64,000 bases of DNA from a virus. The stretch spans positions 113,881-177,880 of the IMG/VR virus record IMGVR_UViG_3300035670_013228; one strand, 5' to 3'. Position 1 is the first letter of the stretch. Each line of letters opens with the position of its first letter. Below the pieces are notes generated by a model. The model searched no databases and was not told the origin of the DNA. It saw only the letters and a program-made list of their open reading frames with translations. Positions 34,906 to 52,908 of the stretch are shown piece by piece. The translations under genes and the position numbers were made by a program.

Positions 34906-36000
34906 TTATAATAGATCGTATTCTAAATCGTATATGTCATTATTAATACTATCAATGTAGGTCAAATCTAAAATTTTGTAAACATAACTAAATGTTGCTG
35001 GCGGTAATGTTGTTGTTGTTGTTGTTGTTGGTTCTGGAGTTGTGGTGGTAGTTGTTGGCGCTGGCGTGGTTGTGGTCGAAACTACCGTTGCTGATTCTTG
35101 AGCTATTTGATTTGCTATATTAGATATTGTTGTGGTTTTGTTTTCTGTTACACTTCCAATATTTTCTAATATTTTTTTTGTAAAAACTATAGAAGAAAAT
35201 GTATTACCTTTTGAGAATTCTTCTATATCTTTATTTATTATTGACGTTGTATTATTAGAAATAATATCAATTTCATTTGTTTGTTCTTGTGTTAATTGTT
35301 GATTGTTATTTAAGTTAAGAACTTGTTTTTTAGACTCAACTAAGATAGTATTAGTTTTTTGATTAAAAAATTCTGTTGGATTTAATCTTATAGTATTATC
35401 TTCTATAATTGTTTTAGCAATTGATGAAAAAACATTACTTTCGGTAGTTTCTAATGCTGTTTTTGCAATCAAAACAACAGAAGATAATTTTCTATTTGTT
35501 TCGTATGCATTATTTATTGTATTAGAAAACGTAAATTCATCGTTTCCATTTGGATTAATATAATTTGTTAGATCAAATCCAAAAAGATTTTGAATACGAT
35601 TAATAGGATTATTTTCTCCAAGTCTAACAATTTCATTATAAATAGTAGAAATAGCAGAAAATATAATTCTATTATTAATTTTGTTTGAATTATAAAGATA
35701 TGTATATCTAAACTCTATGGGTTGATTTGTTTCTGTGTCTATTGATAAATTATTGCTATTAACTACAAAATAATCAGGACTTAATTGTATAATTTGATTA
35801 ATTTCATTTTGTGATAAAATCAAATTACTTCCACTAACGGTTTTACTAAATCCTATTGAATTATTATTTTTTACCATTCCAAATGTAAAATTAGAAATCG
35901 TGGATCCTTCAATCAAAATAGATGGAGTACTAGTCCTTCTAACTTTAGCAACTCCGTTTACCATTAATAATTTATTAGTATTAATTTTAAATGATGTCAT
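34906..36000 (-). CDS. Large beta-rich protein with Thr/Pro linker
   Basis: 364 residues. The first ~20 residues (FKINTNKLLMVNGVAKVRR) match those of the FGE-like lectin at 36.4-37.4 kb, so the two share an N-terminal attachment module. A Thr/Pro-rich linker of roughly 25 residues precedes a C-terminal domain. A GTGTATWAT element lies about 40 bases before the ATG. Probable fibre or spike. Confidence 0.5.
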   Translation of the reverse strand: MTSFKINTNKLLMVNGVAKVRRTSTPSILIEGSTISNFTFGMVKNNNSIGFSKTVSGSNLILSQNEINQIIQLSPDYFVVNSNNLSIDTETNQPIEFRYTYLYNSNKINNRIIFSAISTIYNEIVRLGENNPINRIQNLFGFDLTNYINPNGNDEFTFSNTINNAYETNRKLSSVVLIAKTALETTESNVFSSIAKTIIEDNTIRLNPTEFFNQKTNTILVESKKQVLNLNNNQQLTQEQTNEIDIISNNTTSIINKDIEEFSKGNTFSSIVFTKKILENIGSVTENKTTTISNIANQIAQESATVVSTTTTPAPTTTTTTPEPTTTTTTTLPPATFSYVYKILDLTYIDSINNDIYDLEYDLL

Positions 36001-36406: not shown

Positions 36407-37375
36407 CTAACAAGAATAATTTGAAGCTACTGGACCGTTACCATTAGAATCTGCTGCTACACAAGTTGGATCTGTATCGCTTTGAGTAGCATAAACCCAG
36501 TATCCAGCATTAGTTCCGCCGCCTTTGTAATATGCCGCCTTGTGCCATTCATTTTCGGTGGGTAAATGATATTTAGCATCATTATTACTGGGTACAGCAT
36601 TTCCAGTAGTTCTTCCGTCTGGAATAGTGTATGCTCCACTTTCGGTACTGCCATTGCCTTTTCCGTTATGTAGCCAGTTGCAATATCGGGCACAGTCAAA
36701 CCAACTTACATAAGTTACTGGCTTGTTTCCCATGTTATTTTTAACACTATAAGTGTAACTACCACTAGAGCCGCTTCTAGTTATTCCGCCCCTAGCATGG
36801 ATATTCATATCGGTATTGTATAAATTGTAAGTGTCTATTGCTGCTACAGCATTTAAAAATTCAACATATTCACAGTTGGTAACAAGATATTGAGCTATAA
36901 CATACTCATAATTCACACCGCCATACCCAGTGCTGTGATTAGAGTTGTTAATATCATTAACAAGGGCAAAGTGTGGTAGATTTAAAGGATTAAGGGTAAC
37001 AAAACGACTTGATAGACGAAAACCGAGGCTGTCGTACTCGGCCGACGGGGCGAACGTGCTCCTGCTGGAGGACGACAAGTAGTACGCGATGTTGATCCAG
37101 GAGCCGCCCCGAAGCCCACGAGATGAACCTGTTGTATTATTTAAATCATTCCACTCATAAACTTGTCCACTTTGATCATATGTTCCATAAGCAGATGGTC
37201 CTCCATTAGAGCCAACCGTGGTAACATTACCGTCTTGGCCGTCCCAATCAGCACAAGAGTTAAAATTAGCACTATTAGGACCAGCACTAAAAGGCCCGGT
37301 AACATATGCTTGTTTTCTAACTTTAGCTACTCCATTTTGATATTTTAATTTGTTAGTATTAATTTTGAATAACAT
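36407..37375 (-). CDS. FGE-sulfatase-type C-type-lectin protein with a variable region
   Basis: 322 residues. Residues 3-21 are the FKINTNKL..NGVAKVRK attachment module. Residues ~30-123 hold the C-terminal half of a formylglycine-generating-enzyme-like domain (YGTYDQSGQVYEWND, SRGLRGGSW, LGFRLSSR). Residues ~135-322 hold the N-terminal half (YEYVIAQYLVTNCEYVEFL, KPVTYVSWFDCARYCNWLH, YHLPTENEWHKAAYYKGG). The order is therefore inverted relative to normal FGE, as in a circular permutation. Residues 87-118 carry the variable-region-like, GC-rich codons described separately. The protein is a likely surface adhesin, not a sulfatase modifier. Confidence 0.75.
   Translation of the reverse strand: MLFKINTNKLKYQNGVAKVRKQAYVTGPFSAGPNSANFNSCADWDGQDGNVTTVGSNGGPSAYGTYDQSGQVYEWNDLNNTTGSSRGLRGGSWINIAYYLSSSSRSTFAPSAEYDSLGFRLSSRFVTLNPLNLPHFALVNDINNSNHSTGYGGVNYEYVIAQYLVTNCEYVEFLNAVAAIDTYNLYNTDMNIHARGGITRSGSSGSYTYSVKNNMGNKPVTYVSWFDCARYCNWLHNGKGNGSTESGAYTIPDGRTTGNAVPSNNDAKYHLPTENEWHKAAYYKGGGTNAGYWVYATQSDTDPTCVAADSNGNGPVASNYSC
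37022..37117 (-). other. Diversity-generating-retroelement-type variable region
   Basis: A stretch of about 96 bases is roughly two-thirds GC by my count, in a gene and window that are AT-rich. On the coding strand it encodes RGGSWINIAYYLSSSSRS and continues to LGFRL. Eleven codons are of the form NNC (ATC, AAC, ATC, TAC, TAC, AGC, AGC, TTC, TAC, GAC, AGC), the products expected from AAC template codons through adenine mutagenesis. The flanks match variable regions of FGE-type lectins. No template repeat or reverse transcriptase is in the window. Confidence 0.7.
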
Positions 37376-48526: not shown

Positions 48527-49471
48527 TTAATTAATTGGTTGAATAATACCATATCCTTGATATTCCTTAGTACTTGGGTATCTATTGTCCATCATTGGTA
48601 TTGAGTACTGTTTTAGAAGATTTACATAGTCATCCTTTGATTCTAGTTTATATTTCTTGTGTTTTATATTATAGCTTAATACTAAAGATGCTATTCCAAC
48701 AGCAAACGGATTACTCATACTTGTACCACTCATTATCGAATACCTGTTTCCTGGAACACATCCAAGAATATTGTCTCCTGGTGCAAGAAAATCTAATTCT
48801 TCTCCACTGCATGAGAATGGTGTTCTCTTAAAATTTTCGTCTATTGCTCCAATGGCTATTGTATTTGTATATTTTGCAGGATACATTATCCCTAATCCAG
48901 GACCACTGTTCCCGGCTGCACAAAATATTATCTTGTTTTTGGATACTGCATAGTTTATTGCTTTTTCTATATCTTTACTAGAATGACTAGATCCGAGACT
49001 CATAGTGATAAAGTTAACCTCAAAAACATCTGCCGCATAATATATACCGTCCACTACGGACCTAACCGAACCGCCACCTGAATCACTTAATACTTTGACT
49101 GGTAAAATTTTTGTCTTTGGAGCAACCCCGACTATTCCTCTAGAGTTATTAATCGCTGCTATTGTTGACGAAACATGTGTTCCATGCCCATTTTTATCTA
49201 TTGGTCTGTCTTTTAGATCTATAAAATTTTTACCATCTAATAAATTATCAGATAGATCAGCATGACTCAAATCACATCCTGTATCCAAAACAGCACAAAC
49301 AACACCTTCTCCAGAACTTTGATTCCATGATTTTTCTATATTAAATTTTTTTATTTCCCATCCTAAGGTCTGAGGATCATTCGGAGATAGACCATATACT
49401 GGTTCCGAAATATATGGCAATAATCCTATTTTATTTTTATTGAACCATTTCTGAAACATTTTATTTATCAT
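48527..49471 (-). CDS. Subtilisin-like serine protease (S8)
   Basis: 314 residues. Catalytic D63 (VCAVLDTGCDL), H96 (NGHGTHVSST) and S251 (SGTSMSNPFAVG), with oxyanion N188 (AAGNSGPG). No signal peptide is visible; an N-terminal segment of ~50 residues may be a propeptide. It overlaps the trypsin-like gene by 11 bases, so both proteases are made from one message. Its job may be lysis, host protein degradation or particle processing. Confidence 0.9.
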   Translation of the reverse strand: MINKMFQKWFNKNKIGLLPYISEPVYGLSPNDPQTLGWEIKKFNIEKSWNQSSGEGVVCAVLDTGCDLSHADLSDNLLDGKNFIDLKDRPIDKNGHGTHVSSTIAAINNSRGIVGVAPKTKILPVKVLSDSGGGSVRSVVDGIYYAADVFEVNFITMSLGSSHSSKDIEKAINYAVSKNKIIFCAAGNSGPGLGIMYPAKYTNTIAIGAIDENFKRTPFSCSGEELDFLAPGDNILGCVPGNRYSIMSGTSMSNPFAVGIASLVLSYNIKHKKYKLESKDDYVNLLKQYSIPMMDNRYPSTKEYQGYGIIQPIN

Positions 49472-50222
49472 CTGTTAATTGAAAAGCTGTATCTATAATC
49501 CAATCTTTATATACACTAACTCTTGTATGAACCGTGACTGCTCCGTATTTAGACTTTCCCTTGTTGGGTTTATCTTCTACCACACCAGAATGTATTCCTG
49601 CGAGATCATTTCCTATAAAAAGTCCTCCTCCGCTATCCCCAGGAGCAATAATAAACTCTAATTCTGTTTTGCCGGTTTTTACAGATGGCGAACAAAATAA
49701 CAAATACTCGTTTACTGCATCAATAATATTAGATCCTGCTCTTTTTTTACTTTCTTTATTAGATATTATCCCTGTAATAAATGTACCAGTAGCACCGTAC
49801 CCTGCCAAAGAACATACGGATCCGTTTTCTCTGTCGTTTTTATATATATCTGGATACCAATCCAGTCCTATGTCGCCAGAAACCAAACACATTGCTATAT
49901 CGTGTTTACCAAATTTTTCATAATCATAATCTTTATGAACTACTATTTTTTTAACGGGTAATAATTTTGTATTAAAAATTACAACAGAAGTTTTATTATT
50001 ATGAAATATATGAGCAGCTGTTATAATTATATTACTTTTATACGCTACTACAGATCCAGAATACGGAGTATCATCCTGTTTCCTACCTATTATTTGACCG
50101 ACATAAGGAAATTTTGATCCATATTCTATATATTTATCATCAGGCGTAGAAGGATCTATTGTTCCGGAAAAAGATAATGTTCCATAAATCATTAATAATA
50201 TCATTAATAATATTTTTATCAT
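49461..50222 (-). CDS. Trypsin-like serine protease (S1) with signal peptide
   Basis: 253 residues. MIKILLMILLMIYGTLSFSG is a signal peptide. The triad is H71 (IITAAHIF), D108 (HDIAM) and S197 (PGDSGGGLF). Extra features: SGSVVAYK at the start of the domain and SLAGYGATG. It should act outside the cytoplasm. The upstream gap holds a GTGTATWAT-like element about 27 bases before the ATG. Confidence 0.88.
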   Translation of the reverse strand: MIKILLMILLMIYGTLSFSGTIDPSTPDDKYIEYGSKFPYVGQIIGRKQDDTPYSGSVVAYKSNIIITAAHIFHNNKTSVVIFNTKLLPVKKIVVHKDYDYEKFGKHDIAMCLVSGDIGLDWYPDIYKNDRENGSVCSLAGYGATGTFITGIISNKESKKRAGSNIIDAVNEYLLFCSPSVKTGKTELEFIIAPGDSGGGLFIGNDLAGIHSGVVEDKPNKGKSKYGAVTVHTRVSVYKDWIIDTAFQLTDDK

Positions 50223-51633: not shown

Positions 51634-52908
51634 TTATATTAGTATCTCTTTGATTATATTTCCATTATCAATAATTTTAACAGGTCTATTTCCTGGAGCT
51701 ATTAGATGTTTATTATGATCAATGCCTAATAGATTATATAGTGTGGCGCCCCAGTCCTCTACGCCCACCGGATCGTCCTGTGGTTCGCTTGCTGTGTCGT
51801 TGCTGGAGCCGTATACCAGCCCTTTTTTAATTCCTCCGCCTGCCATGACTATAGAAAAAACACGCGGCCAATGATCGCGCCCAGCGGTTGGATTTATTTT
51901 TGGAGTACGACCAAATTCTGTGGCAACACAAACCAGCGTTGAATCTAATAGACCTTTTTCATCTAGATCATTTATTAGTGCAGAAAAAGCTTTGTCGAAA
52001 GATGGCAACTGACTACCTATATTTAGTGCTATATTATCGTGATGATCCCATCCGCCATAAGTTACGTTCACGAATCTGACCCCGGCTTCTACCAATCTTC
52101 TGCTTAGTAGTAATCTCATTCCAGCAGCAGTTTTACCATAAATTTCTTTGGTCTTATCGTCTTCTTTGTTAATATCGAATGCTTGTATAGCCTGAGACGA
52201 ATTCATAATATCATAAGCATTTTGATAAAAAGAATTCATAGAATCCAAAGAGTCCGACTTTTGCCTAACATTGAACTCTTTGTTGACTATTTCTAGCATC
52301 GCTTTTCTTTTATCAAATCTATTTATAGATATTCCATCTGGTAGTGTTAAATCTCTAACTTTAAAGTTTGGATCTTCTGGATTTCCACCAAGACTAAATG
52401 ATGAATAACTGTGACTAAGATATCCGGCACCAGCAAATTCGTTGGGTACATTAGGTACTGTTATATATGGAGGTAAATTATTCCTGACTCCTAATTGTTG
52501 ACTGACTACTGATCCTAAACTCGGATACTGAATGGCTGGACTAGGACGATATCCAGTAAACATATTATTAGTTCCACGCTCATGTGCTGTTTCACTATGA
52601 GTCATGGATCTGATAATGCTAATTTTGTTCGCTATTTTTGCAGTTTCTGTTAGGTATTGACTAAAAAATATTCCAGGAATACTGGTTGATATACTATTCA
52701 AAGGACCCCTATAATCAACCGGACTATTAGGTTTTGGATCAAAGGTTTCTTGATGAGCATATCCGCCCGGTAGATAAATATAAATCACTGACTGTGCTTT
52801 TGCTTCCTTCACAGAAGGTTCTTCTGCTCTTAATTTTAGGTAGTCTCCAAGATTTAATCCTAGATATCCTAAAACACCTGTGTTGATAAAGCCTCTTCTG
52901 TTAAACAT
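51634..52908 (-). CDS. DUF1501 protein with twin-arginine signal
   Basis: 424 residues from ATG 52908, which has AAAGGATG upstream. The N-terminus MFNRRGFINTGVLGYLGL looks like a Tat signal (RRGF). Family marks include YIYLPGGYAHQETFDPKPN, HSETAHERGTNNMFTGYRP, PYITVPN and TEFGRTPKINPTAGRDHWPR. DUF1501 proteins are sulfatase-fold relatives found in large numbers in Planctomycetota. In a phage it is unusual and probably captured from a host. No obvious catalytic Cys/Ser formylglycine motif is seen. Confidence 0.85.
   Translation of the reverse strand: MFNRRGFINTGVLGYLGLNLGDYLKLRAEEPSVKEAKAQSVIYIYLPGGYAHQETFDPKPNSPVDYRGPLNSISTSIPGIFFSQYLTETAKIANKISIIRSMTHSETAHERGTNNMFTGYRPSPAIQYPSLGSVVSQQLGVRNNLPPYITVPNVPNEFAGAGYLSHSYSSFSLGGNPEDPNFKVRDLTLPDGISINRFDKRKAMLEIVNKEFNVRQKSDSLDSMNSFYQNAYDIMNSSQAIQAFDINKEDDKTKEIYGKTAAGMRLLLSRRLVEAGVRFVNVTYGGWDHHDNIALNIGSQLPSFDKAFSALINDLDEKGLLDSTLVCVATEFGRTPKINPTAGRDHWPRVFSIVMAGGGIKKGLVYGSSNDTASEPQDDPVGVEDWGATLYNLLGIDHNKHLIAPGNRPVKIIDNGNIIKEILI

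Follow-up and report, generated by a model that had tools for sequence, protein, structure and literature searches.

A diversity-generating retroelement (DGR) located off the phage, likely on the chromosome of a Planctomycetota host, has probably acted in trans to rewrite the variable region (VR) of a circularly permuted FGE/C-type-lectin phage protein. A broader proposal, on which confidence is evenly poised, is that Planctomycetota phages maintain lectin genes as landing pads, in which the VR is diversified by a DGR on the host chromosome. Such an arrangement would be cross-genome and RT-less (RT, reverse transcriptase), and would extend to two or more phage lineages, of which one has a permuted FGE lectin. 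The phage is represented by a linear IMG/VR record of 177,880 bp, GC 0.327 over its whole length, and the stretch analysed, here called the window, is its bases 113881-177880 (64,000 nucleotides). The features of concern, in window coordinates, are:

36407..37375, minus strand: target gene; the 322-aa phage protein that it encodes has an FGE/C-type-lectin domain in circularly permuted form, at residues about 29-322
36995..37291, minus strand: first-placed half, corresponding to the C-terminal part of the FGE fold and containing the VR; its matches are to the C-terminal ends of TvpA 2y3c, SUMF2 1y4j and the planctomycete protein L158
36410..36967, minus strand: N-terminal half of the FGE fold, placed second; residues 157-292 correspond to Pfam profile 36-131, and residues 266-307 to L158 4-48
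37016..37111, minus strand: VR, 96 bp, GC-rich, running CGG GGC GGC ... GGT TTT CGT, with NNC codons
37016..37024, minus strand: GGTTTTCGT, the VR 3′ end and candidate initiation-of-mutagenic-homing (IMH) end, also in DGR template repeats (TRs)

The original prediction, made from the letters of the window, was of a GC-rich island of about 96 bases in an AT-rich gene, and such an island is there: the VR has a GC of 0.62, compared with 0.327 for the record, and a GC3 of 0.81, while its flanks have GC 0.40/0.36 and GC3 0.20/0.28. The length of 96 bp stands, but the placing at 37022-37117 does not, as codon columns give 37016-37111, a shift of 6 bases. The top 90-bp segment of the VR (GC 0.66, z 4.7) ranks second in the 177,880-bp record, first rank belonging to a collagen-like Gly-Pro repeat. 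A further short GC-rich island (0.62; G000 99443-99532, the same as L006 1943-2032) is in a large phage gene and, by eye, is not DGR-like. All eleven of the NNC codons that had been counted are present (ATC AAC ATC TAC TAC AGC AGC TTC TAC GAC AGC), and two GCC and one CTC codons fit the same pattern. The end GGTTTTCGT is shared with the TRs of an unrelated viral contig, L033, and of the planctomycete locus L158, with GGTTTTCGC in the planctomycete loci L172/L173. When a BPP-1-type downstream hairpin was sought past the VR, only an 8-nt A+T inverted repeat was found, at 36945-36963, about 50 bases beyond it.

The proposal that this is a DGR-type VR in an FGE-type domain, i.e., one with the C-type lectin fold, is upheld by that codon pattern, by the Pfam FGE-sulfatase match of the 322-aa protein (7.9e-21), and by matches to FGE and to TvpA (2y3c), the latter being among the best in both profile and fold comparisons. 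These matches and a confident structural model put the VR in a ligand-binding-type fold, and, by analogy with known DGR targets and from its fold, the protein may have a surface-recognition role. A search of GenBank phages with the protein gave no relatives, and Foldseek of the permuted-lectin model against viral structures gave no match.

The FGE domain is circularly permuted, and on this three tests agree. The part with RGGSW...GFRL, usually near the C-terminus of FGE, precedes the Pfam match to the front of the profile (residues 157-292); in the family profile it is the N-terminal part that aligns with the C-terminal ends of SUMF2 and TvpA, and the later part with an earlier part of FGE. 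In BLAST against planctomycete L158, residues 61-140 of the window protein pair with L158 84-158 and residues 266-307 with L158 4-48. AlphaFold2, given 60 relatives, returned a confident single domain (pLDDT 96.2, pTM 0.94; with 14 sequences the pLDDT was 33), of which sequential Foldseek against TvpA/FGE aligned only about 104-112 columns. The canonical order, N-terminal half first, is thus reversed in the target protein and, since the C-terminal half comes first, the VR is internal. The relatives in IMG/VR (77 loci examined of 167 matched) are collinear with the window protein, so the permuted order is common to the phage family; many of them have Thr-Pro linkers or several FGE modules. An extreme is a 3,062-aa phage protein (L020 3399-12587; L074 10001-10867) with several permuted FGE modules and AT-rich VRs, on a contig where a GC-rich VR lies in a separate gene stretch; of the several VRs there, perhaps only one has been served by the retroelement recently.

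Could the variation be no more than that of a hypervariable loop under diversifying selection, GC-rich through codon or amino-acid bias, with no retroelement involved? That many AT-rich VRs of the family are hypervariable too is what such a loop would give. However, in eight phages, the window's and seven others, codon columns have abrupt VR edges, at CGG and CGT, and between those edges the usual pattern of divergence is reversed. Differences per site at codon positions 1/2/3 are 0.45/0.46/0.14 in the VR and 0.23/0.21/0.44 in the flanks (chi-square p about 1e-82, the pairs being non-independent). For the window phage compared with the others, third positions differ at 0.088 in the VR and 0.418 in the flanks, and positions 1-2 do the opposite. 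Because of this reversal, chance is ruled out for the VR, and the same reversal rejects composition bias as its source; assembly chimera was likewise rejected, as the same in-frame island is in many independent contigs. Conservation of third positions inside and their strong divergence outside, together with an adenine bias relative to TRs (below) and the association of a particular end with GC-rich VRs, make a loop without a retroelement highly improbable. Across the family, column entropy is 3.07 bits in the VR and 1.53 elsewhere (p 3e-12).

The GC of the VR is graded in the family: about a dozen members are GC-rich (0.55-0.66), some intermediate, and most AT-rich like their own genomes. The GC-rich ones have a common frame, CGG GGC GGC nnC TGG nnC nnC nnC GCG nnC nnC TTG TCG TCC TCC nnC AGG nnC ACG nnC nnC CCG TCG nnC GAG nnC nnC nnC nnC GGT TTT CGT, with some codon insertions, and GGTTTTCGT, like GGTTTTCG, occurs in 10 of the 12 GC-rich VRs and 3 of the 34 AT-rich ones. 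On these sequence patterns, the GC-rich VRs seem to have been overwritten fairly recently by one common GC-rich, AAC-rich template, and older imports would have drifted toward the base composition of the phage. Two template adenines behave differently from the rest: those of AGG and GAG are still A in 8/8 and 7/8 phages respectively (window 37016-37111 and aligned relatives), whereas of the adenines elsewhere in the inferred template the window VR retains only about 40%. Selection for Arg/Glu, or local protection, are the alternatives offered. Near-identical contigs, including ones from different samples, mostly carry one and the same VR, and so give no sign of recent activity.

If a retroelement is involved, where are its template and its RT? 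A complete DGR cassette has an RT in the same genome and, also there, a TR that matches the VR except at adenines, and on this phage neither was found. An exhaustive scan of the 177,880-bp record yielded no TR, 25 family records had no TR-like copy at up to 3 mismatches, and no RVT_1/RT was present in 39 family records (the window's and 38 related, some of 200-230 kb; 4.77 Mb, partly near-duplicates), though the same search detects the RT of the DGR contig G016. The expectation of an RT and TR within the phage genome was therefore not borne out, for TR in the 177.9-kb record and for RT in the record and its relatives. The original prediction had taken the lack of both nearby as evidence against it and, read literally, that lack is what was found. 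Yet Planctomycetota chromosomes hold homologous TR-plus-RT cassettes, and VR frames are common to diverged phages, and both suggest a DGR that acts from another genome, not an absent one.

The record is linear and possibly incomplete, and family contigs reach 230 kb, so is a DGR of the phage's own in an unsampled part of its genome the answer, or a TR and RT on some other mobile element, such as a plasmid, a satellite or a second phage infecting the same cell? A complete-looking DGR does exist on an unrelated viral contig (L033/G016; L033 8160-8242, L055), with a TR ending ATCGGTTTTCGT, an RT (6.8e-20) and the same 3′ end as the window-phage VR. Nevertheless, the RT-free 4.77 Mb and the 25 records without a TR-like copy count against such a source, and the closest RT relatives examined in IMG/VR have no TR as close as those of Planctomycetota. 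With GenBank phages and plasmids also giving no TR-like match, a source of that kind is quite improbable.

The original prediction that the template came from a different, GC-rich genome fared better, being supported by adenine-type mismatches and by the match of the inferred template to Planctomycetota TRs. Planctomycetota genomes were scanned for AAC-rich templates, and DGRs of the same class were found in three. In L158 the TR is RGGSWNNNANNLSASNRNNNDPSNENNNIGFRL, and next to it are a seemingly frameshifted RT and a VR gene of FGE PEP-CTERM-like type; in L172 it is RGGNWNNNSNNLSSSNRNDNNPANENNNNGFRV, with an RT; and in L173 it is RGGNWNNNSNNLSSSNRNNNNPTNENNNIGFRV, with an RT, the target, L175, being on another contig. 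The L158 RT is split over frames (about 613-1453), and yet its own VR has adenine-type changes relative to its own TR. The template deduced from the phage VRs finds its best match, 73/83, in these TRs among all the DNA examined. Compared with the three, which are related and not identical to that template, the window VR has 55-62% of adenines mismatched and 16-20% of other bases (p 2e-5 to 1e-4), and 11-13 non-A sites differ from the nearest TRs. That the Planctomycetota DGRs are taken as real is because of RT motifs and the adenine bias between their own VRs and TRs: 19/29 A sites and 3/54 non-A sites differ in L158, and 6/16 and 0/38 in G890. The RT has GLPIGNLTSQ/YLDD motifs and matches PDB 8ub7 (4.7e-44). 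Searches of the phage family, IMG/VR and GTDB species genomes found no exact donor, meaning a TR that agrees with the VR at every non-A site; in the latter two, exact inferred-TR patterns led only to family VRs or chance matches, except for the L033 contig. Searches of the order and class to which one of the TR-bearing genomes belongs, and of the family of another, brought no closer TR.

How might a template on another genome reach a phage gene? The RT of a host, or other resident, DGR would copy a GC-rich, AAC-rich TR with adenine-specific errors, and during infection the mutated cDNA would take the place of the matching VR in the phage lectin gene. Common ends, CGGGGCGGC on the 5′ side and GGTTTTCGT on the 3′ side, would guide the replacement, about 13 codons would end with changed residues, the others being kept, and the phage would contribute the landing pad only. 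Retrohoming in trans, the identity of the host and ligand binding are thus all put forward conditionally. Counted against the in-trans reading are the AT-rich VRs of most family members and the almost invariable keeping of the AGG/GAG adenines, as well as the donor TR that the searches did not find, the indirect nature of the host evidence, the single VR of most near-identical contigs and the possible incompleteness of the records.

Other AT-rich phage contigs with GC-rich FGE VRs (L037, L038, L039/L048, L053) came from a pattern search whose remaining matches were mostly chance. In this second lineage the FGE order is canonical in the genes examined (L037, L039), the VRs have a sister template, CGC GGC GGC .. 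TTG CAG TCG TCC .. CGC, and the contigs have no RT, which speaks for the in-trans reading. With the planctomycete target L175 the L037 protein shares 48% identity, and so genes have moved. Such movement is one reason to consider ordinary recombination with the VRs of host DGR targets, by which the phage would take up, as DNA, diversity made in the host, retrohoming into the phage gene playing no part. Homologous VRs do occur in the FGE targets of host genomes (L158, L175), and the codon pattern and GC contrast would be the same. However, the VR edges coincide with TR-type borders in eight phages, the permuted, AT-rich flanks give little homology beyond the VR, and no examined phage VR is identical to a host VR. 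Recombination is the main rival and, with TR-type borders arguing against it, is rather unlikely. Rewriting in trans is the preferred reading.

As to the host, a phage gene at window 51634-52908 (minus strand) encodes a DUF1501 protein (8.5e-111) without a match among GenBank phages; among plasmids its top match comes from Singulisphaera, a planctomycete. This is a modest hint at a Planctomycetota host. A subtilase gene and a trypsin-like protease gene are adjacent (window 48527-50222, minus strand). The proteins of the target gene and of the adjoining gene (window 34906-36000 and 36407-37375, both minus strand) have in common the motif FKINTNKL..NGVAKVR in their N-terminal parts, which may anchor both to the virion or to a partner; no third copy of the motif was seen in the record.

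One survey of DGRs called for an imperfect repeat within 20 kb of an RT (PMC8144416) and another for an RT plus repeats (PMC12629997). Since such surveys begin from an RT and a nearby repeat, RT-less targets are invisible to them. The GC contrast provides a simple search handle: in AT-rich genomes, a lectin patch rich in GC and in NNC codons. In the literature searched, largely without subscription papers, neither a phage target served by the DGR of another genome nor a permuted FGE target was found, and novelty is provisionally claimed for both. An FGE lectin that is permuted and has its VR inside is a new architecture among DGR targets, and this virus may borrow its host's diversity generator.

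In the DGR of Bordetella phage BPP-1 the VR of the Mtd tail fibre is in a C-type-lectin fold, varies in adenine fashion and has a fixed 3′ end; the TR and RT adjoin it on the phage, and it is at the C-terminus of the protein. The window phage is alike in the fold, the adenine-type variation and the fixed 3′-side end, and unlike in having its VR inside a permuted domain and in that no TR or RT was found on it. With Treponema denticola TvpA and other FGE-type DGR targets it shares the FGE/C-type-lectin fold and RGG...GFR borders, but TvpA is a cellular protein of canonical order and the window protein a circularly permuted one of a phage. The Planctomycetota chromosomal DGRs (L158, L172, L173/L175), with TR layout RGGxWNNNxNNLSxSNRNxNxPxNENNNxGFR, likewise have FGE-type targets; they differ in that those targets are host genes of canonical order and in that the TRs are related, not identical, to the phage-inferred template. 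A DGR acting in trans inside one genome is described for Thiohalocapsa PB-PSB1 (PMC10907252), and VRs remote from the RT and TR of the same phage in others (PMC8008677, PMC12629997). There, as proposed here, the VR is away from the RT and the TR is elsewhere; but in those cases VR, TR and RT are in one genome, whereas here the VR is in a virus and the TR and RT would be in its host.
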